From Deltaproteobacteria bacterium (GTDB taxonomy: Bacteria; Desulfobacterota; Binatia; DP-6), in NCBI GenBank assembly GCA_005888095.1, contig VBKF01000105.1, positions 1-64,000 of the forward strand: DNA of 64,000 bases, in the 5' to 3' direction. Of this stretch, positions 2,964 to 60,437 are shown in pieces. Position 1 is the first letter of the stretch; each line of letters starts with the position of its first letter. The notes beneath the pieces are model-generated. The model worked only from the letters and a program-made list of their open reading frames with translations. It did no database searches and was not told the origin of the DNA. The position numbers were made by a program, and so were the translations under genes.

Positions 2964-3788
2964 TCACTTCTTCGGGAACAAGAAGATGAACGCGAACCGG
3001 ATACCCCAGTCGGGCGCGGCGGTCGGGCCCTCTGCGTACCACTTCGGAGCGAGCTGGAGGCTGATCGGCTGCCCAGCGATCTTGAGCACCTGGCTGACGG
3101 GGGCGATCAGGGGGACCGTCCACTTGGTTTGCGTCCAGTCGTACGCCGACTCCGTCTGGAAGCCGAAGCTGGTGTAGGTCTTCGTGGTGTACGACACGAA
3201 CGGCTGGAGGAACGTCTGGCTCACGTGCGCGTGGTCCTCGTCGCCGGCGACGGACCAGACGTGGTTCACCAGCGCGCCGTACGTCCAACCGCTCGCCTGG
3301 CGGAGGGCGACCGCCGTGGGACCGACACCGAACTTGCCCGCCCCGAGGAAGTCGTTGGTCGCCGATGGGAACTGGAGGACGGGGCCGGCGCCGCAGATGA
3401 TCCCGCCCGGGCCCGGGGCCTTCGGCGAGAAGAACAGGCTCTGCACGATGTCGCCGAGACCGTCCTGCGTCGTCGGGCCGATCGTGTCGGTCTGATGGAT
3501 GATCGGGACGATCGTTCGCGAGATGACGTTCCAGTTCTCCGAGATCGAGATCGGAATGACCGGCTGCACGTTGACCAGGTAGCGAAACCCCTTGCTCCCC
3601 TGACCGGCGCCCCATTCGAAGTTGCTCTGGAATGGAACGCTGATGAGCGCCGCGATCGGGTTCTGCAGCTTCTTGGCGAGTTCGGCGGTATCCTCACTCG
3701 CTGCAGGCGGCTCATCTTCGGCGAAGGCCGCGCCCGCGAGGAAGATGCCGACGAGGATCGCGAAGGCGAGCGCCGACAGCCGCCGCAT
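2964..3788 (-). CDS. Outer-membrane beta-barrel protein (transporter/MetA-like family)
   Basis: A 274-residue protein with a cleavable signal peptide (MRRLSALAFAILVGIFLAGAAFA). Amphipathic beta strands rich in Trp, Gly and aromatic residues follow, and it ends in ...IRFAFIFLFPKK. Segments such as NPIAALISVPFQSNF, GLGDIVQSLFFSP and GPVLQFPSAT match the 'neuromodulation/transporter' barrel family that is common next to AraC activators and sulfatases. The window holds a decayed relative at 20824-21636. Start 3788 was chosen because it begins the signal peptide and lies 59 bases after a copy of the 19-base element. The AraC gene is just upstream on the same strand, so control by that activator is likely. 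Confidence 0.85.
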   Translation of the reverse strand: MRRLSALAFAILVGIFLAGAAFAEDEPPAASEDTAELAKKLQNPIAALISVPFQSNFEWGAGQGSKGFRYLVNVQPVIPISISENWNVISRTIVPIIHQTDTIGPTTQDGLGDIVQSLFFSPKAPGPGGIICGAGPVLQFPSATNDFLGAGKFGVGPTAVALRQASGWTYGALVNHVWSVAGDEDHAHVSQTFLQPFVSYTTKTYTSFGFQTESAYDWTQTKWTVPLIAPVSQVLKIAGQPISLQLAPKWYAEGPTAAPDWGIRFAFIFLFPKK

Positions 3789-3847
3789 GGGCCGTGAGTC
3801 GAGCTTCAGCACCGTGATGCCATCAATTACCAGTGCCCGGTGAAGCG

Positions 3848-3866
3848 GTCTTGCCATTCCGGCGGG
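3848..3866 (-). promoter_or_regulatory. 19-base element, site A (upstream of the OMP gene)
   Basis: On the minus strand the second half-site and flank AATGGCAAGAC are perfect; the first half-site has drifted (CCCG for TGGC). A TA step (TAATTG) begins exactly 19 bases after the element, and the OMP start is 59 bases away. It lies between the AraC stop and the OMP start. Confidence 0.7.
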
Positions 3867-3883
3867 CACGCGGGTCACCAGTT

Positions 3884-5017
3884 TCAGCCGCGCCAGGCGA
3901 GACGCAACGAGCTGCCCGACCTCAGGTTCGGCGCTACGGTTCGGCTGGTGGGGGATGGGGAGGTAAGGGGGGACGTGCGAGTTTCCCTGCGGCTCGCGCG
4001 GCGAAATTCGCGCGGAGCGACGCCGGTCCATCGCCGAAAGGCACGGGTGAAGTGGGCATGGTCCGAGTAGCCAAGATCGAGCGCGATATCGAGAACGGTG
4101 GCATCCGTGCCCTGGAGCAGATGGACCGCGGTGTCGAAGCGCGCCTGCGCAACCAGACGCCCGTAGCTCAACCCCCCCTCGGCCAACCGCCGTTGCAGCG
4201 CACGGATGCTCGTGCCGATCGCGCTCGCGGTGACGCCGATGCGGGGGCAGTCGGACGAGGACAGCGTCGCGATCACCTGCAGCACCGATAGCGGGAAGTC
4301 GCCCGCTGGACCCGATGCCCGCCATGCTTCGATGTCCCTGTCCCCGATCTGGCGAGCCGCCGCCGTCCGCACGAGCGGCCGAGTCAACAGGGACTGCGGG
4401 AACGTGAGGGCGGGTTCCCTTTGTCGGAAGACGATCCTCGCGTCGCGCACGACATCGGGGTCACGCAAGCCGTCCGTCCTGGTCGTCTCGAGCACCACGT
4501 CATCCCGCCGCCAGCGTGGTCCGGCGGCGAGACGCAGAACGTTGAGCGCCAGCATCAGGCTGTAGTCATCCGCTTGCCAGTGTGTGTCCGCGAGGCCGTC
4601 GACGAACCGATGACCCAGCCGCACTCGATCGCCGTCGTGCACGAGCCAAGCGTGCCCACCGGAGCTGAAGACTGCCAACGTGTTCATCGCGGTCTGGATC
4701 GCGTCATGGACTGTGCGCGAGCGGTGAATCAGGTGGCCGAAAACCCCGAGCGCGTCGATGGATGCGTGGTGTCCGGCGAGGAGCCCGAGATTTCCGACGC
4801 CGCTCATCCGCGCCGATTCCTCCATGAAGCCTAACGCTTGGGAAACGGAGAGCAGGTCTTCGGGATCGTCGAACATGGAACCCGAGAGGTGCGCGCGCGC
4901 AAGGAGCTGCTCGACGGGCGCGCCGATGCTCCGGAGAAAGGAGACGACGGGTATCAACCAAGCTACGCGGATGAGCGCGACGGGCTGCGACCGGGGACCT
5001 GCCCCGAGCTTGTGCAT
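3884..5017 (-). CDS. AraC-family activator, OruR/Arabinose_bd type
   Basis: A 377-residue protein. The N-terminal half (about 10-200) is the all-helical ligand-binding domain of OruR/VirS-like AraC proteins (LIRVAWLIPVVSFLRSIGAP ... LGLLAG). The C-terminal double HTH (about 255-345) shows SIRALQRRLAEGGLSYGRLV, then the diagnostic IALDLGYSDHAHFTRAFRRWTG and P-REFR. The frame extends to 5128, but MHKLGAGPRSQPV at 5017 fits the family length. It is divergent from the AAA regulator at 5127. It is the only intact AraC in the window and the best candidate to bind the 19-base element: such proteins use two HTHs on direct repeats about 10 bp apart. The ligand is unknown. Confidence 0.92.
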   Translation of the reverse strand: MHKLGAGPRSQPVALIRVAWLIPVVSFLRSIGAPVEQLLARAHLSGSMFDDPEDLLSVSQALGFMEESARMSGVGNLGLLAGHHASIDALGVFGHLIHRSRTVHDAIQTAMNTLAVFSSGGHAWLVHDGDRVRLGHRFVDGLADTHWQADDYSLMLALNVLRLAAGPRWRRDDVVLETTRTDGLRDPDVVRDARIVFRQREPALTFPQSLLTRPLVRTAAARQIGDRDIEAWRASGPAGDFPLSVLQVIATLSSSDCPRIGVTASAIGTSIRALQRRLAEGGLSYGRLVAQARFDTAVHLLQGTDATVLDIALDLGYSDHAHFTRAFRRWTGVAPREFRRASRRETRTSPLTSPSPTSRTVAPNLRSGSSLRLAWRG

Positions 5018-5126
5018 GGCCCGCGACGGTATGCGGGTCCCGTATGAAAGTCCTGAAAGGACCAGGAAATATCTCGGAAACTCCCCCTTGCTTGTATTGG
5101 CGCAGGTCGTGTGCCACTGCTCGCCC

Positions 5127-8069
5127 ATGGCCGATCCGGGGGGCGTCGCGCCTCCCCCGAGGGTTCGGGGCGAAATTCGCTTCGCGCCCTACCGCCTCGA
5201 CTTGGACGCCGGATTGTTACGGTCCGGTGACAGAGCGATCTCGCTACGGCCGAAGACCTGGGCCGTGCTCCGCTACCTCGCCGAACGCCCCGGCGTGCTC
5301 GTGACCAAGGAGGAGATACTCGACGCCGTCTGGGGGAGAATCACCGTCACCGAAGCCACGCTCACCAAGTCGATCGGGGAGATCCGTGACGCATTGCACG
5401 ACGAGGTCCGGCATCCACGATTCGTGGAGACGGTGCATCGGCGGGGCTTCCGGTTCGTATCCACCGGCGAGGCGGCAGGGGAGCCTCGCGATTCCGGCTC
5501 CGCGGCGCATCCGCCGGCCCACCTCGTCGGGCGCGAGACGGAGCTGATCCGTCTGCATCAACTCCTCGAGGTTGCCGCCGGGGGCACCCGACAGACGGTG
5601 TTCATCACCGGAGAAGCCGGGATCGGCAAGACGACGCTCGTCGAAGCGTTCCTCGCCGCCGTTGCCAGCCGATCCGGTGCGGGCGAGACCATAGTTGCGG
5701 CGGGACAGTGCGTGCGCCGGAACAGCGGCCAAGAGCCTCTGATGCCGGTCCTCGAAGCCGTCGGGCGTCTGGCGCGTGGGCCGCGCGCGGCGCGGGTCGT
5801 GCAGCTGCTGCGCGAGCACGCACCGGCCTGGCTCATCCAGCTTCCCTGGCTCGTCGAGCTGGGAGAACTCCAGGATCTGCGAGCCGGTCTTTCCGGCACC
5901 ACGCCCGAGCGCATGCTGCGGGTCTTCGCTCAGCTCGTCGAGGAGCTGACCAACGACGTCACGCTCGTGCTCGTGCTCGAGGATCTGCACTGGGCAGACG
6001 ACAGCACTGTCGACCTAGTCTCGATCCTCGCCCAGCGCCCCGAGCGTGCGCGGCTTCTCCTGCTCGGCAGCTACCGCGCTGCCGAGGCGATCGCCAACGC
6101 CGGGCCGTTCGACGGGATGCGGCGCCTCCTCGGCTTGAAGCACCGCTGCGTGGAGCTGCCGCTCGACCTCCTCCCGTTGTCGGGCGTCGAGGCCTACCTG
6201 GCCGCCCGATTCGGTGGTCCCGGAACGCCGGCTCCGCTCGCTCGGCTCCTGCACGCACAGAGCGAGGGGAATCCGCTGTTCCTGGCGACGGCGGTCGACC
6301 ACCTCGTGGCTCGCGGCTGGCTCGAGCAAGGCGACCAGGGAGCCATCGTCGCAACCGACTTCGAGACGCTCGAGCGGTACATCCCGGGAAGCCTCCGTGA
6401 CCTCGTCGAGTTGGAGGTCCGCGGCCTGGAGGAGTTCCAGGTCGCGGTACTGGAGGCCGGGAGCGTCACGGGCCCCGAGTTCGGCGCCCAGGTGGTGGCG
6501 GCGGCGCTCGAAGCGCCCGTCGAGCAGGTAGAGGATGCGTGCGAGCACCTCGTGCGCGCGCAACGGTTCCTGCGCTCCAGCGATACCGAGGCATGGCCCG
6601 ACGGCGCCGTCGCCGCTCGCTACGCCTTCGCGCACGCTCTCTACCAGCGCGTGCTCTACCAGCGCATCCCTGCCCGGCGACGCCAACTCCTCCATCAACG
6701 GATCGGCGAGCGGCTCGAGACGGGCTTCGGGGACAGGGGCGCGGAGGTCGCCGGCGAGCTCGCGGCGCACTTCGAGCGAGGCCGCGTCCCCGGACGGGCG
6801 ATTCCATGGCTCGAAAGTGCTGCGGAGTCCTCGGCGCGACGCTTCGCTCCACGCGAGGCCGCCAACTACATGCGACGGGCGCTCGGACTGCTGGCGCACG
6901 AGCCGGAGGGACCAGAACGCTGGCGGTGCGAGATTCGGCTATGCTCTTCACTGGGCGCTGCCGTGATCGCCACGAACGGGTTCGCGGCCGAGGAGGCATG
7001 GACGAGCCTCGCACGAGCACATGACCTCGCTGCCAACATGGGAGGCGCGGTCGAGTTCTTTCATGTCGCCTACATGCTGCTAAACGCCAGCCTCGCGCGC
7101 GCCGACGTCGCTCAGACGCCGCGCCTCACGGAGGAGTTCGCGCGGGCGGCGGAGCAGGTCGGCACACAGGAGGCTCGTCTCGTCGCCGCTATGCTGACGG
7201 CGAACGCCGCATTCTGGGAGGGCCGATACGCCGACGCAGCCGCCCTGGCGGATCTGACAAGAGCCGACCCGACGATCCTCGGGGGTTCCGTCCCGGGCGA
7301 GAACCCCGTCGTCTGGGCGCACGCCGTGGAGGGCTGGCGCCTGTGGCTCCTCGGCCACCCCGACCGGGCTTCAGCGTCCGCCCGGGCCGCGATCACGTGC
7401 GCCCGCTCGCAACCGAACCCGGTAAACCTCGCCATGGCGCTGGCCCTCGCGGCGCCCGTCCACCTGTGGCGTGGCGATCTGCACGACGCGAATATAGTCG
7501 TCGAGGAGGGGCTCCGCCTGGCGGGCGAGCACGGATTCGGGCTCTGGCTCGCCATGCTCCGCAGCGTAGCCGGAGGGATCCATCTTCGCCGCGGGGACGC
7601 CGACGCCGCCGTCCGCGACCTCCGTGAGGCGCTGGTGGATCTCCGTCGCATCAGTGTCTGGGTCCACGTCCCCTCACTGCTGACCGGTCTCGCCGAGGCC
7701 TGGTTGCAGCTCGGGCAGCTCGCCGAGGGGCTCGCGGCGGTCGACGAGGGACTCGAGATGGTGCGTACGACGCTCTGCCGGTGGCACGCCCCAGAGCTTT
7801 GGAGGATACGCGGTGAGCTGCTCGCGGCCCAGCGCGAGCCGCGGGACGCCGTCGATTCGTCCTTGGAGCGCGCGCTCGAGACGGCGCGCGCACAAGGGGC
7901 GCGCGCCTTCGAGCTCCGGGCGGCTACCGCCCTCGCACGCCGGCTCGCGGCTCGGGGCCGGAAGGCTGAAGCTCGCGCGACGCTCACCCTGCCATACGAG
8001 GCCTTCACCGAAGGCCGCGACACCGCCGACCTCGGCGCAGCGCGCGCGTTGCTCCGTGAGCTGGGCTGA
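5127..8069 (+). CDS. OmpR-type DNA-binding / AAA ATPase / TPR regulator
   Basis: About 980 residues. An N-terminal winged helix of the Trans_reg_C type (about 18-112; LRPKTWAVLRYLAERPGVLV, VHRRGFRF) comes first. An AAA/STAND-like ATPase follows, with Walker A GEAGIGKTT near residue 163 and Walker B LVLVLEDLHWAD near 280. Helical repeats of the LuxR/MalT-type TPR class run to the end. COG3899/CadC-like fusions of this plan are signal-dependent regulators. The frame is open further upstream (to 4758), but the start at 5127 removes the low-complexity overlap with AraC and begins just before the DNA-binding domain. The divergent spacing of 109 bases from the AraC start suggests a shared control region. 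Confidence 0.88.
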   Translation: MADPGGVAPPPRVRGEIRFAPYRLDLDAGLLRSGDRAISLRPKTWAVLRYLAERPGVLVTKEEILDAVWGRITVTEATLTKSIGEIRDALHDEVRHPRFVETVHRRGFRFVSTGEAAGEPRDSGSAAHPPAHLVGRETELIRLHQLLEVAAGGTRQTVFITGEAGIGKTTLVEAFLAAVASRSGAGETIVAAGQCVRRNSGQEPLMPVLEAVGRLARGPRAARVVQLLREHAPAWLIQLPWLVELGELQDLRAGLSGTTPERMLRVFAQLVEELTNDVTLVLVLEDLHWADDSTVDLVSILAQRPERARLLLLGSYRAAEAIANAGPFDGMRRLLGLKHRCVELPLDLLPLSGVEAYLAARFGGPGTPAPLARLLHAQSEGNPLFLATAVDHLVARGWLEQGDQGAIVATDFETLERYIPGSLRDLVELEVRGLEEFQVAVLEAGSVTGPEFGAQVVAAALEAPVEQVEDACEHLVRAQRFLRSSDTEAWPDGAVAARYAFAHALYQRVLYQRIPARRRQLLHQRIGERLETGFGDRGAEVAGELAAHFERGRVPGRAIPWLESAAESSARRFAPREAANYMRRALGLLAHEPEGPERWRCEIRLCSSLGAAVIATNGFAAEEAWTSLARAHDLAANMGGAVEFFHVAYMLLNASLARADVAQTPRLTEEFARAAEQVGTQEARLVAAMLTANAAFWEGRYADAAALADLTRADPTILGGSVPGENPVVWAHAVEGWRLWLLGHPDRASASARAAITCARSQPNPVNLAMALALAAPVHLWRGDLHDANIVVEEGLRLAGEHGFGLWLAMLRSVAGGIHLRRGDADAAVRDLREALVDLRRISVWVHVPSLLTGLAEAWLQLGQLAEGLAAVDEGLEMVRTTLCRWHAPELWRIRGELLAAQREPRDAVDSSLERALETARAQGARAFELRAATALARRLAARGRKAEARATLTLPYEAFTEGRDTADLGAARALLRELG

Positions 8070-13932: not shown

Positions 13933-14337
13933 TCACCGTGGACCCGGTTTCCGTCGCGGTGCCAGGACGCCCTCGGCCGGATTCCGTCCGAGACGCCGGA
14001 AGTCCCGGGGCGTGCGACCCGTCCAGCGCAGGAAGGCACGCGTGAAGTGGCCGGCGTTCGAGTAGCCGATCGTGCGGCCGATCTCGCTGATCTTCCAGGC
14101 GGAATCCCGCAACATCTGCCGCGCCATCTCTGCGCGCGCCCGCGCCACCACCTGCGCGTACGTCACACCGTCCTCGCCGAGGCGGCGCTGCAGCGTCCGG
14201 GTGCTCATCCCGATCGCGCCGGCGACGAGCTGGATGTTCGGATAGCGCCCGGCGAACGAGCTCGAGACGACCTGGTGCACTTCGCCGACGAAGTCGCGCC
14301 GAGCGCTGGTGATTCGTGACGATCTTCCACCCGACAT
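13933..14337 (-). pseudogene. AraC-family regulator cut down to its DNA-binding domain
   Basis: 134 codons. They encode the linker and double HTH (VHQVVSSSFAGRYPNIQLVA; STRTLQRRLGEDGVTYAQVV; ISEIGRTIGYSNAGHFTRAF; GRTPRDFRRLGR). The N-terminal ligand-binding domain of about 200 residues seen in the intact homologue is absent. The frame has a start (14337) 48 bases after a perfectly placed 19-base element (site B), so it may still make an HTH-only protein. A constitutive or dominant-negative DNA-binding product is possible. I call it a pseudogene because all other members I know of this subfamily are full length. Confidence 0.7.
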
Positions 14338-14385
14338 GCCGCGCCATCAGCTCGATGGCTGGACGTAGCGCGCGTCGCGGGCGGC

Positions 14386-14404
14386 GTCTTGCCATTCGGT
14401 GCCA
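14386..14404 (-). promoter_or_regulatory. 19-base element, site B (truncated AraC gene)
   Basis: Reads TGGCACCGAATGGCAAGAC on the minus strand. Both TGGC half-sites are intact, 10 bp apart. A TA step (TACGTC) starts exactly 19 bases downstream, and the AraC-fragment ATG is 48 bases away. It stands back-to-back with site N. Confidence 0.75.
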
Positions 14405-14467
14405 GCACGGCGACCTCGATCGCGAGACGGCGCGCGCCGCCGCCAACGGTCACGAGCGTTCGAGCCG

Positions 14468-14486
14468 TGGCACGAGATGGCAAGAG
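14468..14486 (+). promoter_or_regulatory. 19-base element, site N (K+ channel pseudogene)
   Basis: Reads TGGCACGAGATGGCAAGAG on the plus strand. Both half-sites are intact. A TA step (TACGAC) starts 19 bases downstream, and the channel ATG is 57 bases away. With site B it makes a divergent promoter pair 63 bases apart. Confidence 0.75.
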
Positions 14487-14543
14487 GCGCGCGTCACGCG
14501 CTGATACGACGCCGAGGACCGGCGACCGGACTGGCCGCACGCC

Positions 14544-15202
14544 ATGCCCATATCCCGAAGGACGGGCCGTCGGATGCCCGGCTTCAGCCTGCTGCTGGCC
14601 GGCATGTTCGGCGAGCTCATGATCGCCCCGCTGTTCGGCAGGAGCGGCGGCGGGCTCGGCCCGGCCCGCGTGATCACCGCGGTCATGCTGCTCGCGGCGC
14701 TTTCGGTGGTCGGGGGGCCGTGCGGCGCTCGTGCTCTTCATCGGCGCGATGATCGCGCACGGGCTGGCGAGCTTCTCGAGCGCCTCATTCGTCGGTGGTC
14801 GCCGCCGCGACGTCGCGTTTCGTGTTCCTCTGCTACGCCCTCGGCGTCGTTGTCTGGCACGTTTCGAGGGATCCGGAAGTCACGCTCGACATAATCGCGG
14901 GCGCCGCGTGCGCATACATGTTGCTCGGCGCGGTCTGGGCGGGTCTGTATCAGCTGGTCGAGCACGCGCGACCGGGCTCCTTCGATATCCCCAGCAGCTG
15001 GATACCTCCCGACCGGAATCCGCAAGCCGCGCTCGTGTACTTCAGCTTCGTCACCCTGGCCACCGTGGGCTACGGCGACGTCAAGCCGACGAACCCGGGA
15101 GTAGGTGGCCTCTGCGTCGCCGAAGCGCTCGTGGGTCAGCTGTACCTCGCCATCATGATCGGCCGCATGGTGGCGCTCCAGATCACACGGCGGGGCGTCT
15201 GA
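14544..15202 (+). pseudogene. K+ channel (Ion_trans_2 type), two frameshifts
   Basis: The channel is spread over three frames. The first membrane segments (MPGFSLLLAGMFGELMIAPL ... VITAVMLLAALSVVGG) start at 14544. The reading shifts near the run of six G at about 14712-14717 into LFIGAMIAHGLASFSSASF, and shifts again near 14785 into VAAATSRFVFLCYALGVVVW. The last frame carries the pore helix and selectivity filter TLATVGYGD, the final helix (GQLYLAIMIGRMVALQ) and a stop. It is the same family as the intact channel at 36989. A sequencing error at the G run could explain one shift, but two make decay more likely. Confidence 0.75.
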
Positions 15203-15222: not shown

Positions 15223-15241
15223 TGGCGCGGAATGGCAAGAC
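15223..15241 (+). promoter_or_regulatory. 19-base element, site C (small lipoprotein gene)
   Basis: Reads TGGCGCGGAATGGCAAGAC, a full match. The start codon at 15293 is 51 bases away with a strong ribosome-binding site (GAGAGGAGG). The TA step is not at the usual place; the nearest (TTAATC) is 10 bases after the element. Confidence 0.75.
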
Positions 15242-15292: not shown

Positions 15293-15634
15293 ATGACGGA
15301 ACGATGGACGGCCCCGGCGCTCATCGGCCTCGTGGCAGCCCTGCTGGGCTGCGCCACCCAGAAGCAGACGCTCGCGCAGAAGCAGGACGGGGCGGTTCAG
15401 GCCGCGCTGCAACGCGCGCGCTTCGACCTCAACTGTCCGTCGGCGACCGCGACCGTTTTGTCGAGTGACTTCATCCAGCCCGCCGTGCAGGGCCCGTGGG
15501 TGGGAGGTCTGGAACGGGCCGAGTACACGGTCGGCGTCGTCGGCTGCAACCAGCGCACGACGTACGTCGTCATGTGCCAGGTGGGTACGGATACCTGCTT
15601 CGCCGCCAATCCCGACGAGCGGTTCCGGCGGTAG
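15293..15634 (+). CDS. Small lipoprotein, paralogue of the remnant at 27.6 kb
   Basis: A 113-residue protein. The signal peptide ends with the lipobox LLGCAT. It continues with QKQTLAQKQDGAVQAALQR, a region repeated almost word for word in the remnant at 27600-27810. Four Cys follow in the C-terminal part (LNCPSAT, VVGCNQR, VMCQVG, DTCFAANP), suggesting disulfide bonds in the periplasm. I do not recognise the family. The start is set by GAGAGGAGG and by the 19-base element. Confidence 0.8.
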   Translation: MTERWTAPALIGLVAALLGCATQKQTLAQKQDGAVQAALQRARFDLNCPSATATVLSSDFIQPAVQGPWVGGLERAEYTVGVVGCNQRTTYVVMCQVGTDTCFAANPDERFRR

Positions 15635-17013: not shown

Positions 17014-17913
17014 GCTGGGTCCGACGCCACCGCATCCGGCGCTATCTGGCGTCGTCGCTGTGGATCATGCCGCTCGCGGGGATCTTGCTGGCGCTGGTGG
17101 CCGCGCCGCTCGTCCGCGGCCTCGACGCGGCGACGCGCTGGACTCTCCTCGGATTCACGCCCGAAGGGGCACGGACGGCGCTCGGCGCGCTGGTCGCGTC
17201 GACGCTCGGGTTCATCGTGTTCGCCTTCTCGATGATCCTCCTCGCCGCGGACCGTGCGTCACAGCGGGCCTCCGGGTGTACTCGTGGCCTTCGACGCCGG
17301 GGGTCTGGCCGCCGTGGCTCGTCGAGCAGACGCCGTCATCGCGCTGGTGCCGAGAGCGGGCGACTTCGTGGCGACCGAAGCGCCGCTGTTTCACCTGCTG
17401 TCGGGCGGCGACGGCCTCCGCGATGACGACCTCCGCGACCGGGTTGCGCTCGCCGCCGAGTGGGAGATCCACCAGGATCCCGCCTTCGCGTTCCGCATCA
17501 TCGTCGACATCGCCTCGAAGGCGCTCTCGCCCGCGATCAACGACCCGACGACCGCCGTCATCGCGATCGACCATCTCCAGCATCTCTTGACGGAGGTCGC
17601 GCATCGCGAGCTCGCCGACGACGGCGTCGGCGATGCCACAGGGCAGCGGCGGCTCGTCGTCCGCACGCCGGACTGGGACGATTACGTGAGCCTCGCCGTG
17701 ACCGAGATCCGCCTCTACGGGGGCAGCAGCATCCAGGTCGTTCGCCGGCTCCGCGCCATGCTCGAGAGCCTGGTCGAGACCTTGCCCCCGGGCCGTGCCG
17801 CGACGCTCGGCGAGGAGCTCGACGTCCTGCATCGCATGGTCGCTCGCCTCTACCTCGAGCCGGCGGACCTGGCGCGCGCCGACGCGGCGGATACGCAGGG
17901 GATGGGGGTCTGA
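17010..17913 (+). pseudogene. DUF2254 membrane protein, internal deletion and frameshift
   Basis: The N-terminal part (MSWVRRHRIRRYLASSLWIM, then two membrane helices up to FIVFAFSMILLAADRASQ) is in one frame. Near 17268 it jumps into another frame that carries the soluble C-terminal domain (VLVAFDAGGLAAVARRADAV ... DIASKALSPAINDPTTAV ... ELDVLHRMVARLYLEP). In intact DUF2254 proteins about 120-150 further residues, including two membrane helices, lie between these parts. Its ATG overlaps the stop of the upstream fragment (GGGCCCATGA). Confidence 0.75.
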
Positions 17914-18394: not shown

Positions 18395-18413
18395 TGGCGC
18401 AGAATGGCAAGAC
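18395..18413 (+). promoter_or_regulatory. 19-base element, site E (glycine-zipper gene)
   Basis: Reads TGGCGCAGAATGGCAAGAC. A TA step (TACTGA) starts 21 bases downstream and the ATG at 18457 is 43 bases away. Confidence 0.75.
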
Positions 18414-18456: not shown

Positions 18457-18894
18457 ATGAGAAGCGTCGTGCAGGGTGTTGTTGCGCTGGGCGTCGGCCT
18501 GGCCCTGGTGGGGCAAGCCATAGCGGCCGATCTGTTCGTGTATCCCCAGAAGGGACAGTCGCCGGAGCAGCAGAACAAGGACTCCTACGAGTGCTACAAC
18601 TGGGCGAGGGCGCAGAGCGGGGTGGACCCCGGGGCGCCGCCGCCACCCGCCCAGGCAGGCCAGCACGCGCGCGGGGCGGTGGGTGGCGCCGCGCGCGGCG
18701 CGGCGGTCGGGGCGGCGGTCGGGGCGATCGCCGGGAACGCCGGCAAGGGTGCTGCCGCGGGCGCCGTGGTCGGGGGCGTCGGCGGCCGCCGACGCTCGGT
18801 GGCGGCCCAGCAGCAACAACAGCAGACGACCCGCAGCGCGTACGACCGCGCCTTCGCCGCCTGCATGGAAGGCCGCGGCTACACCGTCCGCTGA
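18457..18894 (+). CDS. Glycine-zipper (YMGG-like) secreted protein
   Basis: A 145-residue protein with a signal peptide (VVQGVVALGVGLALVGQAIAA). A conserved FVYPQKGQSPEQQNKD and YECYNWA segment precedes a glycine zipper (ARGAAVGAAVGAIAGNAGKG, AAAGAVVGGVGG). A Gln-rich stretch and a C-terminal YDRAFAACMEGRGYTV follow. Two Cys may pair. Proteins of this plan are common in envelope-stress clusters but have no assigned reaction. Its start is fixed by site E and by the signal peptide. Confidence 0.85.
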   Translation: MRSVVQGVVALGVGLALVGQAIAADLFVYPQKGQSPEQQNKDSYECYNWARAQSGVDPGAPPPPAQAGQHARGAVGGAARGAAVGAAVGAIAGNAGKGAAAGAVVGGVGGRRRSVAAQQQQQQTTRSAYDRAFAACMEGRGYTVR

Positions 18895-23185: not shown

Positions 23186-23204
23186 TGGCGCGAAATGGCA
23201 AGCC
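23186..23204 (+). promoter_or_regulatory. 19-base element, site F (arylsulfatase)
   Basis: Reads TGGCGCGAAATGGCAAGCC. A TA step (TATCCT) starts 20 bases downstream. The sulfatase ATG is 131 bases away, but a 28-codon frame begins 40 bases after the site, at the spacing seen in other copies. Confidence 0.7.
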
Positions 23205-23335: not shown

Positions 23336-25789
23336 ATGAAGCAAGAGCACACGATTCGCGCCGTCGGACTCGTGCTGGTGGCGCTGTTCTCTCCGGTTGC
23401 AGTCGTCCCCGCCGCTGCCGAGGATGCCGCCGCTGCACGGGTAGTGTATCCGACGGATCGTACCGTACTGCCGATCCCGGAGCCCGTGAATCCGCCCATC
23501 ACTGTGCTCGACGTTCGAAACGCCACGCCTCCGCCACGGTTCGAGGTGAAGGCGCCGCAGAACGCGCCCAACGTTCTGATCGTCCTGATCGACGACATGG
23601 GGTTTGGACAGTCTGGCGCCTTCGGTGGGCCCATCCACATGCCGACGGTGGAGCGCCTCGCGGGCGAGGGGCTGCGCTACAACGAGTTCCACACTACAGC
23701 GCTCTGCTCGCCGACCCGCTCGGCCCTGCTGAGCGGCCGCAACCATCACGTGAACAACTTCGGTTCGATCGCCGAGACCGCGACGGCATTCCCAGGCCAA
23801 ACCGGGCAGCGCCCGAACAGCGTCGCACCACTGGCAGAGATGCTGCGGCTGAACGGCTACAGCACGGCTGCCTTCGGAAAGTCGCACGAGACCGCTGCGT
23901 GGGAGGTGAGTCCATCGGGCCCGACCGATCGCTGGCCCACGCGTTCGGGTTTCGACAAGTTCTACGGCTTCATCGGCGGCGAGACCAACCAGTGGGCGCC
24001 GCTGCTCTACGACGGAATGATTCAGGTCGAGCCCTCGCACGACCCTCACTATCATCTCATGACTGACATGACCGACCAGGCGATCGCGTGGATGCGATAC
24101 GAGAAGTCCCTCACGCCGGACAAGCCGTTCTTCATCTACTTCGCGCCCGGTGCCACCCACGCGCCGCACCACGTGCCGAAGGAGTGGATCGCCAAGTACA
24201 AGGGCAAGTTCGACCAGGGCTGGGACGCGGTGCGCGAAGCGACGCTCGCACGGCAGAAGCAGCTCGGCGTCGTTCCGCCGGAGACCAAGCTCGCGCCGAA
24301 GCCGGAGGCCATCAAGGACTGGGCGACGCTGACCCCGGACGAGAAGAAGCTCTTCGCTCGCGAGATGGAGGTCTTCGCCGGGTTCGGCGAGTACACCGAC
24401 ACGGAGATCGGCCGGCTGATCGACGCTATCGGAGACGTCGGTCAGCTCGACAACACGCTGGTCTTCTACATCGTCGGCGACAACGGGGCGAGCGCCGAAG
24501 GTGGCATGGTCGGGCTCTTCAACGAGATGACGTACTTCAACGGCGTGCACGAGAGCGTCGGGGACATCCTGAAGCACTACGACGACCTCGGCGGCCCGAA
24601 GACGTACGGCCACTACGCCGCCGGGTGGGCCGTCGCGGGTGACTCGCCGTTCGAGTGGACGAAGCAGGTCGCGTCGAGCTACGGCGGCACGCGCAACGGG
24701 ATGGTGATCCGCTGGCCCAAAGGCATCCCGGCGAAGGGCGAGGTGCGATCCCAGTGGCATCACGTCATCGACATCGCCCCGACGATCCTCGAGGTGGCGG
24801 GCCTGCCCGAGCCGAAGAGCGTCGACGGAACGGTCCAGATCCCCATCGAAGGCGTGAGCCTGGCATACACCTTCAAGGACGCCAAGGCGCCGAGCCGGCA
24901 CACCACCCAGTACTTCGAGATCTTCGGCAATCGATCGATCTACAACGACGGCTGGCTCGCGGGCACCGTCCACCGCGCGGCGTGGGAGTTCAAGCCGCGG
25001 ACGACGCTCGAGAAGGACACCTGGGAGCTGTACGAGACTCGGACGGACTTCAGCCTGGCCAACGATCTCGCCGCGAAGAACCCGGAGAAGCTGAAGGAGC
25101 TGCAGGACCTCTTCCTCAAGGAGGCGGCGAAGTACCACGTGCTGCCCCTCGATGACCGGACCCTGGAACGCTTGAATCCCGCACTCGTCGGGCGGCCCGA
25201 TCTCATGGCGGGCCGGACCTCACTGACGGTCTACGACGGTATGACCGGGATGTCCGAGAATGCCTTCATCAACGTGAAGAACCGGTCGCACGCGATCACC
25301 GCACACGTGGAGATTCCCAAAGGCGGGGCAAACGGCGTGGTCCTGGCTCAGGCGGGTCGGTTCGGCGGCTGGAGCCTTTACCTGAAAAACGGCAAGCCGA
25401 CGTACATCTACAACTTCCTGGGGCTGCAGCGGTACACGGTGGCGGCCGAGCGGGCGCTGCCGCCCGGGAAGGCGACCATCCGTTTCGAGTTCGCCTATGA
25501 CGGCGGCGGTGTCGGGAAGGGCGGCACGGGTAAGTTGTTGGTCGACGGCAAGGCGGTTGCGTCGGGACGGATCGAACGAACCCAGTGCTGCGCGTTCTCG
25601 GCAGACGAGGGCGCCGACGTGGGCGCCGACGAGGGCACGCCGGTGACCGAGGACTACACCGTGCCGGCGAAGTTCACCGGCACGATAGACGAGGTGACAA
25701 TCGACCTGCAGGAGGTGAAGGCCGCCGACAGGGGCGAGGTCGAGGTCTCACGCAAGACTGCCGCGCTGAAGAAGGGGCTGTCCGACTAG
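23336..25789 (+). CDS. Arylsulfatase, large form (FGly type)
   Basis: An 817-residue secreted protein with a signal peptide ending PAAAED. The sulfatase fold begins at NAPNVLIVLIDDMGFG (metal ligands D86, D87). The active-site motif is C124-S-P-T-R, where Cys is oxidised to formylglycine. Further ligands are in AFGKSHET and VGDNGASAEGG. The last 180 residues are a beta-sandwich-like C-terminal domain (KGGANGVVLAQAGRFGGWSL; GKGGTGKLLVDGKAVASG). It resembles the AtsA-like sulfatases that hydrolyse aryl or alkyl sulfate esters in the periplasm. A stump of a second such C-terminal domain is at 38038. Confidence 0.95.
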   Translation: MKQEHTIRAVGLVLVALFSPVAVVPAAAEDAAAARVVYPTDRTVLPIPEPVNPPITVLDVRNATPPPRFEVKAPQNAPNVLIVLIDDMGFGQSGAFGGPIHMPTVERLAGEGLRYNEFHTTALCSPTRSALLSGRNHHVNNFGSIAETATAFPGQTGQRPNSVAPLAEMLRLNGYSTAAFGKSHETAAWEVSPSGPTDRWPTRSGFDKFYGFIGGETNQWAPLLYDGMIQVEPSHDPHYHLMTDMTDQAIAWMRYEKSLTPDKPFFIYFAPGATHAPHHVPKEWIAKYKGKFDQGWDAVREATLARQKQLGVVPPETKLAPKPEAIKDWATLTPDEKKLFAREMEVFAGFGEYTDTEIGRLIDAIGDVGQLDNTLVFYIVGDNGASAEGGMVGLFNEMTYFNGVHESVGDILKHYDDLGGPKTYGHYAAGWAVAGDSPFEWTKQVASSYGGTRNGMVIRWPKGIPAKGEVRSQWHHVIDIAPTILEVAGLPEPKSVDGTVQIPIEGVSLAYTFKDAKAPSRHTTQYFEIFGNRSIYNDGWLAGTVHRAAWEFKPRTTLEKDTWELYETRTDFSLANDLAAKNPEKLKELQDLFLKEAAKYHVLPLDDRTLERLNPALVGRPDLMAGRTSLTVYDGMTGMSENAFINVKNRSHAITAHVEIPKGGANGVVLAQAGRFGGWSLYLKNGKPTYIYNFLGLQRYTVAAERALPPGKATIRFEFAYDGGGVGKGGTGKLLVDGKAVASGRIERTQCCAFSADEGADVGADEGTPVTEDYTVPAKFTGTIDEVTIDLQEVKAADRGEVEVSRKTAALKKGLSD

Positions 25790-25825: not shown

Positions 25826-25844
25826 GTCTTGCCATTCCGCGCCT
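25826..25844 (-). promoter_or_regulatory. 19-base element, site G (orphan)
   Basis: Reads AGGCGCGGAATGGCAAGAC on the minus strand, with a TA step (TATGGA) 20 bases downstream. It points left, into the 3' end of the sulfatase gene, where no minus-strand start exists at the usual distance. The gene it served appears to be gone. It lies 43 bases before the solute-binding-protein start but in the wrong orientation. Confidence 0.65.
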
Positions 25845-27533: not shown

Positions 27534-27552
27534 TGGCGCGAAATGGCAAGAA
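27534..27552 (+). promoter_or_regulatory. 19-base element, site H (lipoprotein remnant)
   Basis: Reads TGGCGCGAAATGGCAAGAA. The remnant's ATG at 27600 is 47 bases away. No TA step at 19-22, consistent with a decaying unit. Confidence 0.65.
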
Positions 27553-27599: not shown

Positions 27600-27810
27600 A
27601 TGGACGAAGCCATTGACGGCCCCGGCACTGCTTGCCGCGGTGCTGAGCGCGAGCGGCTGCGCGACCCAGCAGCAGCAGCTCCAGGCGCCACAGGACGGAA
27701 CGGTACAGACGGCCCTGCAGCGGCGCCGATTCGATCTCAGAAGCTGGGTGGCGGCCCTGCCCGGCTACGCGGTCCAACGGACGGCCATCCTCCTCGGGCT
27801 GGTGCGATGA
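27600..27810 (+). pseudogene. Truncated paralogue of the lipoprotein at 15293
   Basis: After an ATG at 27600 the frame must shift once to reach LTAPALLAAVLSASGCATQQ and QQLQAPQDGTVQTALQRRRF. These match TAPALIGLVAALLGCATQKQ and DGAVQAALQRARF of the intact gene. The four-Cys C-terminal half is replaced by about 22 unrelated codons and a stop. Site H in front is preserved, so regulatory and 5' coding sequence outlasted the rest. Confidence 0.75.
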
Positions 27811-30628: not shown

Positions 30629-30647
30629 GTCTTGCCATTCCGCGCCA
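30629..30647 (-). promoter_or_regulatory. 19-base element, site I (collapsed activator)
   Basis: Reads TGGCGCGGAATGGCAAGAC on the minus strand. The flanks match those of site L: both are followed by CGGAYGGCCCGAAAGAG. It points at the collapsed sigma54 activator. Confidence 0.75.
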
Positions 30648-30743
30648 TGGGGGCCCACCCCACCGGGAGGCGAACGCCAGGGGCCCCGACGCTGTTTCGC
30701 GCCAGCGCCAGCCCCGGGCGCCCGACTTCGATGTGCCGGCGCC

Positions 30744-30762
30744 TGGCGTCAAATGGCAAGAC
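30744..30762 (+). promoter_or_regulatory. 19-base element, site J (small secreted protein)
   Basis: Reads TGGCGTCAAATGGCAAGAC. A TA step (TATCCG) starts 19 bases downstream, and the ATG at 30807 is 44 bases away. It stands back-to-back with site I, 96 bases apart. Confidence 0.8.
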
Positions 30763-30806: not shown

Positions 30807-31079
30807 ATGATCAAACGACTGGTACCCGCGCTGCTTTTCGCCGGCGTCGCCGGCGCTCAACAAGACCCGATGCTGGACATGATCGCCGACAAGGTCATCC
30901 AGAAATACCAGCAAGCGAGCTGCGAGCAGCTCTGGCAGAGGAAGGGCCAGAAGAAACCACCGATGGAACAGGAAGCCATACAGAAGCTTCGCGATAATCC
31001 GGGTCTGCGCACTGCCTTCATCAACCGAGTAGCGGCTCCCATCGTCAACAAGATGTTCGAATGCGGGATGATCCCATGA
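30807..31079 (+). CDS. Small secreted helical protein (paralogue 2)
   Basis: A 90-residue protein with signal peptide MIKRLVPALLFAGVAGAQ and the same core as paralogue 1: MDMIADKVIQKYQQASCEQL-type sequence and a C-terminal MFECGMIP. Both Cys are kept. An alternative in-frame ATG at 30795 exists. Its stop overlaps the ATG of the DUF2092 gene (ATGA at 31076), so the two are coupled, and site J drives the unit. Confidence 0.87.
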   Translation: MIKRLVPALLFAGVAGAQQDPMLDMIADKVIQKYQQASCEQLWQRKGQKKPPMEQEAIQKLRDNPGLRTAFINRVAAPIVNKMFECGMIP

Positions 31080-39291: not shown

Positions 39292-39310
39292 TGGCGTGAA
39301 ATGGCAAGAT
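39292..39310 (+). promoter_or_regulatory. 19-base element, site K (DUF4239 stump)
   Basis: Reads TGGCGTGAAATGGCAAGAT. The DUF4239 remnant becomes readable 52 bases later, where a start would be expected. An AT step, not TA, lies 20 bases downstream. Confidence 0.7.
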
Positions 39311-39362: not shown

Positions 39363-39719
39363 CCCGAGAACCATCTGACCCAAGACTCCAAGGACGTCGT
39401 GAAGCTCGGCAGGGGCCTCATCGCGACGATGGCGGCTCTCGTCCTTGGCCTGCTGATCGCCTCCGCGAAGAGCGCGTTCGATGCCGACTCGATCCCGATG
39501 CCGTTCCTGGTGGTGCTGGTCTTCTGGATCACCGTGATCTTCGGGAGCTTCGGTCTCTTCGCGCCGCCCAATGGAACCGTCGTCGCCGTCCTGCTCGTCT
39601 GTGCGCTATCGATTGCGGCGTCGATCGTTCTGGTCGTGGAGATGGGCCGGCCGTTCGAAGGAATCCTGAAGATATCCAGCGCGCCGTTGCGCTACACCCT
39701 CTCGCATCTCGGACAGTAG
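39363..39719 (+). pseudogene. DUF4239 protein with internal deletion
   Basis: Reads PENHLTQDSKDVVKLGRGLI, ATMAALVLGLLIASAKSAFD and then directly DSIPMPFLVVLVFWITVIFG to KISSAPLRYTLSHLG. Compared with the copy at 15904 it lacks the first helix and about 115 residues between the second helix and the third, and the junction is in frame. A GTG at 39399 could still start a three-helix mini-protein, so residual function is possible. Confidence 0.75.
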
Positions 39720-58665: not shown

Positions 58666-60279
58666 TCAGGCTGGCCGCCGGATACCGAGCTTTGCCATGC
58701 GCGTCTCGAGGGTCGTCGGCGGAAGCCCGAGGAGGGTCGCCGCGCCCTGCAGCCCGCGCACACGCCAACTGGCTTGTTCGAGCACCCGCACGATGTGCAG
58801 ACGCTCCACGTCTTCCAGCGCCAGACTCTCCGCGGTTGCTGTTCCCCGACGCTCGGGCGGGTCGATCCGGAGCACCGGCTCGCCGCTCAGGATGATCGCC
58901 CGTTCGACGACGTTCCGCAGCTCGCGGACGTTGCCGGGCCACGTGTATCGCTGCAGGTCACGGAGGCTGCTCACGTCGATGGCCTCGAATCGCTTCCCCA
59001 TCTTTCCCCCGATCTCGGTCACGATCGTGTGCACGAGTACCGGGATGTCCTCGGGACGCTCGCGCAACGGCGGAACCACGATGGGGAACACGGCCAGGCG
59101 GAAATAGAGATCGTTCCGGAAGCGGCCATCGGCGACGGCCTGCTCGAGATCGCGGTTCGTTGCCGCGATGACGCGGACGTCGACGCGGATCGTGCGCGGG
59201 CTCCCGAGTCGCTCGAACTCGCCTTCCTGCAAAACGCGCAGCAGCTTCGCCTGCAGCTCGAGCGGTAGCTCGCAGACTTCGTCGAGGAAGAGGGTGGAGC
59301 CGTGGGCGAGCTCGAAGCGTCCGACCTGGCGGGACAGGGCGCCGGTGTAGGCGCCCTTCTCTCGTCCGAACAGCTCCGCCTCGACCAGCGTCGCCGGCAG
59401 CGCAGCGCAATTGAGCTTGATTATCGGACGGTCCGCGCGGGTGCTCCTGGCGTGGATCGCTTCGGCGACGAGCTCCTTGCCCACGCCGGTCTCTCCCATG
59501 ATGAGTGCCACCGCGTCGGTCGGCGCCACTCGTTCGACCAGGGAAAGCGTCCGCTGGATCGCGCGGCTCTGACCGACGATCCGGGGCATGCCGATGGCGC
59601 TCCGCGTCTGCTGGCGAAGGAACCTGTTCTCCCGTTCCAGACGCTCCCGCAGCTCCTGCACCTCGGCGAGGGCAGCGCGGAGCTGTTGATCCATGTGTCT
59701 GCGGGCGAGCACGGCGCAGACCATGTGCGCCACCGTGCAGAGCCGATCGAGCACCGCGGGGGACCAGGTCCGTTCCGTCCTCATCGAGCCGAAGGCGAGC
59801 GCGCCGAGAACCTCGCCACCGGCCACGAGCGGCATCGTGGCGTTCGACCTCGGCCCCAATCGCTGGATGAGGGCCTTGTCGACGGCGGCTTCCTCGGGGA
59901 GGTCGTCGAGCCGGGAGAAGACGATTTTCTCGCCGCTCATCACCTGCATGTAGCTCCACGGCAGATCGGCTCGTCCCCACACCTTCGGGAACGGGTCCTG
60001 CCCCGGCACGGCCCACGAGTGGGTCACGACCAGGTCCTCCCCCGATCGCTGGAACAGGGTGCTCCGGTCGAGACCCAGCGCCTCGACGATGCGCCGCAGG
60101 CTATCCTCGATCGCTTGATCGACGCGCTCGGGATCGATGCTGATGAACCCCGCCGCGAGATCGATGATCAATGACTCGAATCGGAGGCGTTCCCCGACCT
60201 CGACCCGGGGACGCCTACCTGTCGCGTCCGCGAGACCCGACGGCACCGCGGCAATGTCTCCGCCCAAGGTCAGCATCAT
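58666..60279 (-). CDS. Sigma54-dependent activator with GAF domain
   Basis: A 537-residue protein. A GAF domain (about 45-195; LGLDRSTLFQRSGEDLVVTH; NATMPLVAGGEVLGALAFGS) leads through a coiled linker to an AAA+ domain with Walker A GETGVGKE at 262-269, the sigma54 contact loop GAYTGA at 309-314 and FLDE at 331-334. A Fis-type HTH with GLQGAATLLGLPPTTLETRM ends it. GAF-type activators sense small molecules or redox state. Site L is 23 bases upstream, so it may itself be AraC-controlled. A copy collapsed to its ends is at 30440-30605. Confidence 0.94.
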   Translation of the reverse strand: MMLTLGGDIAAVPSGLADATGRRPRVEVGERLRFESLIIDLAAGFISIDPERVDQAIEDSLRRIVEALGLDRSTLFQRSGEDLVVTHSWAVPGQDPFPKVWGRADLPWSYMQVMSGEKIVFSRLDDLPEEAAVDKALIQRLGPRSNATMPLVAGGEVLGALAFGSMRTERTWSPAVLDRLCTVAHMVCAVLARRHMDQQLRAALAEVQELRERLERENRFLRQQTRSAIGMPRIVGQSRAIQRTLSLVERVAPTDAVALIMGETGVGKELVAEAIHARSTRADRPIIKLNCAALPATLVEAELFGREKGAYTGALSRQVGRFELAHGSTLFLDEVCELPLELQAKLLRVLQEGEFERLGSPRTIRVDVRVIAATNRDLEQAVADGRFRNDLYFRLAVFPIVVPPLRERPEDIPVLVHTIVTEIGGKMGKRFEAIDVSSLRDLQRYTWPGNVRELRNVVERAIILSGEPVLRIDPPERRGTATAESLALEDVERLHIVRVLEQASWRVRGLQGAATLLGLPPTTLETRMAKLGIRRPA

Positions 60280-60302: not shown

Positions 60303-60321
60303 GTCTTGCCATTTGACGCCA
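60303..60321 (-). promoter_or_regulatory. 19-base element, site L (sigma54 activator)
   Basis: Reads TGGCGTCAAATGGCAAGAC on the minus strand. The start codons of the activator (60279 and 60276) are 23-26 bases away, closer than in the other copies, so the leader is very short or a later ATG is used. The flank matches site I. Confidence 0.75.
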
Positions 60322-60437
60322 TGGCTCATCCCGGCTTCTTGCCCGATCGCGCCAGAGCCGACAGGGCCGCCGTCGCCGAATCCGAGACGGACGGATCAGC
60401 TCAGTCGCGTCGACCTCCACGACGCGACGGGATCGGG

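Follow-up and report, generated by a model that had tools for sequence, protein, structure and literature searches.

The question raised by this locus is whether a small, HTH-only AraC-family protein is a working regulator that reads the DNA elements found ahead of its own gene and of the divergently oriented K+ channel gene, or whether it is what remains of a longer protein. We addressed it in the window, by which we mean the whole 64,000-nucleotide stretch of DNA that was analysed. The organism is a soil bacterium. The same signal is found next to related regulators in many bacteria, and this suggests that cell-envelope genes are under a control circuit that is little known.

A divergent pair of elements ahead of a small AraC gene and a K+ channel gene

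The first-pass annotation described two sites, B and N, lying 63 bases apart and each followed by a TA exactly 19 bases downstream. Both statements hold: the gap is 63 bases, with B on the minus and N on the plus strand, and the two TA dinucleotides, which we read as parts of predicted -10 sequences, have the spacing described (Table 1). The start codons, placed there at 48 and 57 bases, were measured at 49 bases (B to ATG 14337) and 58 bases (N to ATG 14544), and the former values are obtained by extending the element by one base. By inference, the RNA starts implied by the TA dinucleotides would fall approximately 18 bases before ATG 14337 and approximately 27 bases before ATG 14544. B and N, each two mismatches away from the 18-mer TGGCGYGRAATGGCAAGA, look like a divergent AraC-type operator/promoter pair and most likely form two divergent class II promoters, and we regard this element and predicted-promoter reading as strong.

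Table 1 Features of the window discussed in the text.
Feature	Position	Strand	Remarks
AraC of full length (Arabinose_bd + HTH_18) that may read the elements in response to a ligand	3884-5128	-	
Half element AATGGCAAGA after the full-length AraC gene, ahead of 2964-3788	3849-3858	-	TA at 19; no upstream TGGC; 3.1 bits
Small AraC-family protein (134 aa), HTH-only, with two helix-turn-helix motifs	13933-14337	-	HTH_18 (8.1e-20) and HTH_AraC only
TA of predicted -10 downstream of B	14366-14367	-	19 bases from element
Element B, TGGCACCGAATGGCAAGA	14404-14387	-	PWM 28.4 bits; also exact match to element-plus-TA pattern
Element N, TGGCACGAGATGGCAAGA	14468-14485	+	PWM 25.1 bits
TA of predicted -10 downstream of N	14505-14506	+	19 bases from element
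K+ channel gene in three reading frames	14544-15202	+	14544-14714, 14716-14793, 14795-15202; GC3 0.93, 0.92, 0.84
Element, small lipoprotein-like gene 15293-15634 downstream	15223-15240	+	no TA at 19/20
Element, Gly-zipper gene 18457-18894 downstream	18395-18412	+	no TA at 19/20
Element, sulfatase gene 23336-25789 downstream	23186-23203	+	TA at 20
Element, no clear target called	25827-25844	-	TA at 20
Element, short ORF 27640-27810 downstream	27534-27551	+	no TA at 19/20
Element, left arm of second divergent pair, no clear target called	30630-30647	-	no TA at 19/20
Element, right arm of second divergent pair, ahead of 30807-31079	30744-30761	+	TA at 19
Element, truncated bestrophin-like gene 39399-39719 downstream	39292-39309	+	no TA at 19/20
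Element, gene 58666-60279 downstream	60304-60321	-	no TA at 19/20

The gene beyond N had been called a K+ channel. A channel gene is indeed present on the plus strand, but translation from ATG 14544 does not reach the pore (ATVGYGD, Ion_trans_2), which is found only in 14795-15202 and in a different frame. Since the GC3 values are coding-like in all three frames, the window channel has either been broken recently or carries a consensus error. G003, another genome of the family, has a whole K+ channel gene 46 bases after an element. Because the window gene is split over three frames, the channel as predicted output of N in the window genome is a weaker proposal than originally stated.

Recurrence and geometry of the element

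The element has the consensus form TGGCRYSRAATGGCAAG-N19/20-TA. With at most one mismatch allowed, the window contains 16 copies of its core AATGGCAAGA where 1.08 are expected, a count reached by none of 100 shuffles, and the exact sequence ATGGCAAGA is found 30 times in the genome, 12 of them on the window contig. With up to two mismatches, the 18-mer TGGCGYGRAATGGCAAGA has 16 matches in its own genome (11 on the window contig, five on contigs C122 and C175) and none on the remaining 268 of the 271 contigs, while up to three mismatches give 30 genome matches versus 8 for the reversed pattern. A matrix was trained on 46 elements from the window genome and four family members, and the conserved columns over these elements read TGGC-R-Y-S-R-AA-TGGCAAGA. 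Of the 46, 28 have a TA 19 or 20 bases downstream (24 of 42 once near-identical contexts were collapsed), compared with a mean of 2.6 and a maximum of 11 in 2000 shuffles of the downstream bases, and no TA occurs at offsets 12 to 18 among the 46. Six of the 11 strong window elements (15223, 18395, 27534, 30647, 39292 and 60321) have no TA at 19 or 20.

The elements at family loci are intergenic in 48 of 51 cases and most of them lie 16-180 bases ahead of a gene. Their targets include a sulfatase, DUF3300, bestrophin-like, K+ channel, AI-2E-type transporter, PqiA-like and lipoprotein-like proteins, several of these being named only because their translated start resembles a gene that was tested elsewhere. 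The second divergent strong pair in the window (30647- and 30744+, together 30630-30761) has its members 96 bases apart, and a weak second copy (15.3 bits) is located 33 bases upstream of 60321- on the same strand, perhaps as a tandem arrangement (60304-60354). Two genes of the window are fragments: the DUF2254 gene at 17284-17913 matches only profile positions 209-367 of 368, and the bestrophin-like gene at 39399-39719, which is preceded by a strong element, matches only 164-232 of 232. Elsewhere in the genome, another AraC gene (G000:C122:2444-2800; L077, L117) lies near the element C122:653+, and by eye its frame seems to hold only part of the ligand-binding domain.

If the TA is taken as -12/-11, the 18-mer spans approximately -49 to -32 in forward orientation, with its centre at about -40.5. 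In the accessible parts of the following sources, MarA is described as binding its marbox as a monomer, with the forward marbox overlapping -35 at class II promoters (PMC6900184), and the same class II rule is given in PMC12052159; the class II sites of MarA, SoxS and RamA in Salmonella are reported to cluster near -41 in forward orientation with no recognisable -35 (PMC10268841), and RamA, a protein of about 110 residues, to contact sigma region 4 and the alpha-CTD from the class II position (PMC8811837). Measured against those parts of PMC6900184 and PMC10268841, the element has the properties of a MarA-type class II site, being in forward orientation over -35, centred near -41 and accompanied by a predicted -10. 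The marbox GCAHWWWWTGYYAAA, as it appears in the accessible part of PMC6900184, fits the element at one offset with a mean of 10.6 of 15 positions, compared with 4.7 for random sequence and a 99th percentile of 9.

Pairing of the element with AraC genes across phyla

As an independent test set we used 80 named public loci picked by AraC similarity alone. The matrix found 69 elements in 52 of these loci, versus 2 for the reversed matrix, and the element adjoins the AraC gene (Arabinose_bd + HTH_18 family) in 49 of the 80; the 28 loci without an element were counted as misses. A TA is found at 19 in 33 of the 69 elements. When 20 column-shuffled matrices were applied to 20 of the loci they gave 0 or 1 match, compared with 16 for the real matrix. 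The element-bearing loci include Pseudomonadota, Cyanobacteriota and Acidobacteriota. Twelve named genomes were searched whole, with 0 to 3 copies in each; the element was present in 11 of them, and 14 of the 16 matches are inside the AraC locus by coordinates. Within the window's phylum the element-plus-TA pattern occurs four times in the window genome and in none of 246 other sampled genomes, a sample that includes the family member G003, whose elements deviate from the strict pattern; with the AraC profile, matches at 1e-26 were obtained in 4 of 247 genomes of the phylum.

Since AraC loci of several phyla carry the element, at 0 to 3 copies per genome, and it is rare in the window's phylum, the predicted operator-regulator pairing is scattered over phyla and amplified in the window organism's family. 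Given the MarA/SoxS-like geometry and register, together with the position beside its own AraC gene in 49 of 80 loci, we take the element to be a putative AraC-type class II operator which in this family is expanded into a candidate envelope-gene regulon. In the loci L183, L168, L208, L210, L180 and L162 (Brucella, Pseudomonas, Mesorhizobium and Halioglobus) the element is followed by what are presumably DUF1254-like proteins, and by eye the Brucella target (L183:5396) resembles 2964-3788 of the window. The literature, as far as its texts were accessible, yielded no description of the element or of the regulator-target pairing, and AAATGGCAAG combined with the AraC family led to a Vibrio ToxR paper.

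The 134-residue protein as a probable HTH-only regulator

The left AraC gene had been called HTH-only, and profile search agrees, reporting nothing besides HTH_18 and HTH_AraC. The HTH_18 score of 71.4 bits versus a curated cut-off of 33.6 places the protein in the AraC/XylS family. Its predicted structure has seven helices and two HTH motifs with pLDDT above 85 over the HTH core, and the nearest fold neighbours are CdpR, GadX and Rns (PDB entries including 3mkl). The statement that the gene has kept its promoter, start and HTH is likewise sound, as element, predicted -10 and ATG are in a workable order and HTH_18 is present; no Shine-Dalgarno-like sequence stands out by eye ahead of ATG 14337. 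A shuffled version of the 134-residue stretch stays open 6% of the time, and therefore the open frame alone proves little.

It had further been claimed that the gene lost its ligand-binding domain at this place, and this part was not supported. PF12625 (Arabinose_bd), present in 3884-5128, is absent from 13933-14337, and no remnant of it is detectable upstream; one weak collinear alignment there (20.8 bits) was dropped, since 51 of 300 shuffles and 37 of 300 pieces of the window scored as high. No full-length AraC orthologue was found at the same locus in relatives: the neighbouring EF-hand gene is present in 2 of 8 genomes (the window genome and G003:C11, at 120381), and because the AraC gene of G003:C11 (79558) lies elsewhere than this EF-hand gene, no orthologous locus was identified. 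HTH-only homologues do exist in two other genomes of the family. A total of 42 matches was obtained in 38 relatives; the ten best are all from the family and include three HTH-only ones, namely the 134-residue protein, a 142-residue frame on G002:C98 and a protein of 144 residues on G003:C8. G002 belongs to the same genus as the window genome, and one of the 80 public loci, L148, coincides with the stretch G002:C98 that was in the training set.

One further clear HTH-only case, L152, was found among the 80 public loci. Here a full-length AraC gene (3659-4672, minus strand) and the HTH-only gene point away from each other, and the region between them holds two elements, of 14.6 and 26.0 bits, each followed by a TA at 19. 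A K+ channel gene comes after the next element, so that the partnership seen in the window is repeated in another lineage. This trio is in our reading the strongest single argument for a functional HTH-only form. L191, which had been flagged as short, keeps by eye part of a ligand-domain-like stretch and was left out of the HTH-only count. An own element is strong in two of the four HTH-only genes, reaches 8.1 bits in G002 and is absent at 3 bits or more in G003. Branches leading to the HTH-only rows are long (1.0 to 1.8), and monophyly had to be given up, as the tree of 88 rows gave no single supported clade; relaxed selection would give the same picture.

A doubtful alternative is that the ORF is decaying and represents what is left of a full-length AraC gene or a paralogue, with the elements serving full-length AraC proteins only. 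The frameshifts in the adjoining channel gene, the other gene fragments in the window (DUF2254, 17284-17913; bestrophin-like, 39399-39719) and the long branch of the 134-residue row could be read in this way. However, as described above, a ligand-binding remnant was not found upstream, and the protein keeps every column that is invariant in the nine-sequence alignment, its GC3 is 0.84 in frame, and HTH-only homologues are found in three other genomes, the one in G003:C8 shortly downstream of an uninterrupted ORF. We therefore favour an established MarA-like mini-regulator and consider domain loss at this locus less likely. As HTH relatives adjoin the element in 49 of 80 loci and an HTH-only AraC of another lineage has its own element, it is plausible that the 134-residue protein regulates sites of the B and N type.

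A putative circuit for envelope genes

In our proposal AraC-type activators bind B and N, and each of these two operators is followed by a sigma-70-type -10 in class II geometry; the intergenic region would thus hold two back-to-back activator-dependent promoters. The left gene, in the same proposal, encodes an HTH-only protein of the MarA type, an established member of this regulator family. Because the promoter of the small AraC gene carries the element, a full-length, ligand-responsive relative, such as the one encoded by 3884-5128, is the most likely candidate for switching it on. The small protein would then bind the same elements as a ligand-free monomer, among them those ahead of its own gene and of the K+ channel gene, and the outcome would be a self-reinforcing feed-forward branch of the envelope-gene regulon. 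Binding by the 134-residue protein, activation, autoregulation and the feed-forward role are what we infer from the arrangement, and the circuit as a whole, with the HTH-only AraC as a working, MarA-like co-reader of the elements, we hold to be moderately probable.

The protein could also be made and act as a competitor or dampener, occupying the elements without activating and thereby limiting the ligand-driven response. It would see the same elements and has no ligand domain, and in L152 an HTH-only gene stands opposite a full-length AraC gene across an element pair; but the known HTH-only relatives MarA and RamA, in the accessible parts of PMC6900184 and PMC8811837, activate from this very geometry, and we find a dampener unlikely.

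Sigma-54 promoters have the consensus TGGCACG-N4-TTGC with fixed -24/-12 spacing, and TGGCRYG resembles the -24 box, but a promoter for an alternative sigma factor (sigma-54 or ECF) instead of an activator site is very improbable and was rejected, as the spacing to the second GC is short by one base (C at position 13 in 46 of 46 elements, G at position 12 in 44 of 46) and such a promoter would explain neither why TA is conserved at 19/20 nor why the element is paired with AraC genes.

Extending the proposed co-reader circuit, a conserved operator, TGGCRYSRAATGGCAAG-N19-TA, situated beside a regulator and one or two targets across several phyla, would have become a large envelope regulon in this bacterial family, read by both ligand-gated full-length and ligand-free mini-AraC proteins and with the K+ channel as a recurrent output; we give this broader picture even chances. 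An unnamed repeat is hereby linked to a regulator family by sequence alone, which provides an operator code that can be tested for many AraC proteins not yet studied and for their targets of unknown function (DUF1254-like, DUF2092, DUF3300, bestrophin-like). The locus also offers a natural case where ligand-gated and ligand-free AraC proteins appear to share one operator, and the origin of MarA-like mini-regulators from full-length AraC proteins would become directly testable.

Comparison with known systems

With 134 residues, and with three further HTH-only homologues, the protein has the size of a stand-alone two-HTH regulator (about 110-130 residues). Its relation to MarA, SoxS and RamA is one of fold and architecture at 21-26% identity, and they are not its closest relatives: the closest proteins by sequence are PF12625-type regulators and CdpR, and in the fold comparison the MarA entries come 30th and 35th. 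Shared with the MarA/SoxS/RamA systems are the two-HTH protein, an asymmetric monomer-type site with the register GCA-N5-TG-NN-AA, the need for a -10 but no -35, and envelope-type targets. The systems differ in that full-length paralogues with a ligand domain appear to use the same element here, that the element is GC-rich and highly conserved, and that the target genes are not the same.

A second likeness is to Pseudomonas ArgR, also of AraC/XylS type, for which the accessible part of PMC10963909 gives the ARG box TGTCGCN6GNAA. The ARG half-site is fitted by 39 of the 46 elements in 7 or 8 of its 10 fixed bases (random mean 2.35), but ARG boxes, according to the same part of that source, are tandem repeats 5 bp apart, whereas the element here is a single copy, and the full-length regulators here have an Arabinose_bd N-terminal domain. 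Among solved structures, CdpR of Pseudomonas aeruginosa (PDB 5chh) is closest to the HTH part both in sequence (2e-17) and in fold; unlike the 134-residue protein, it has an N-terminal domain.
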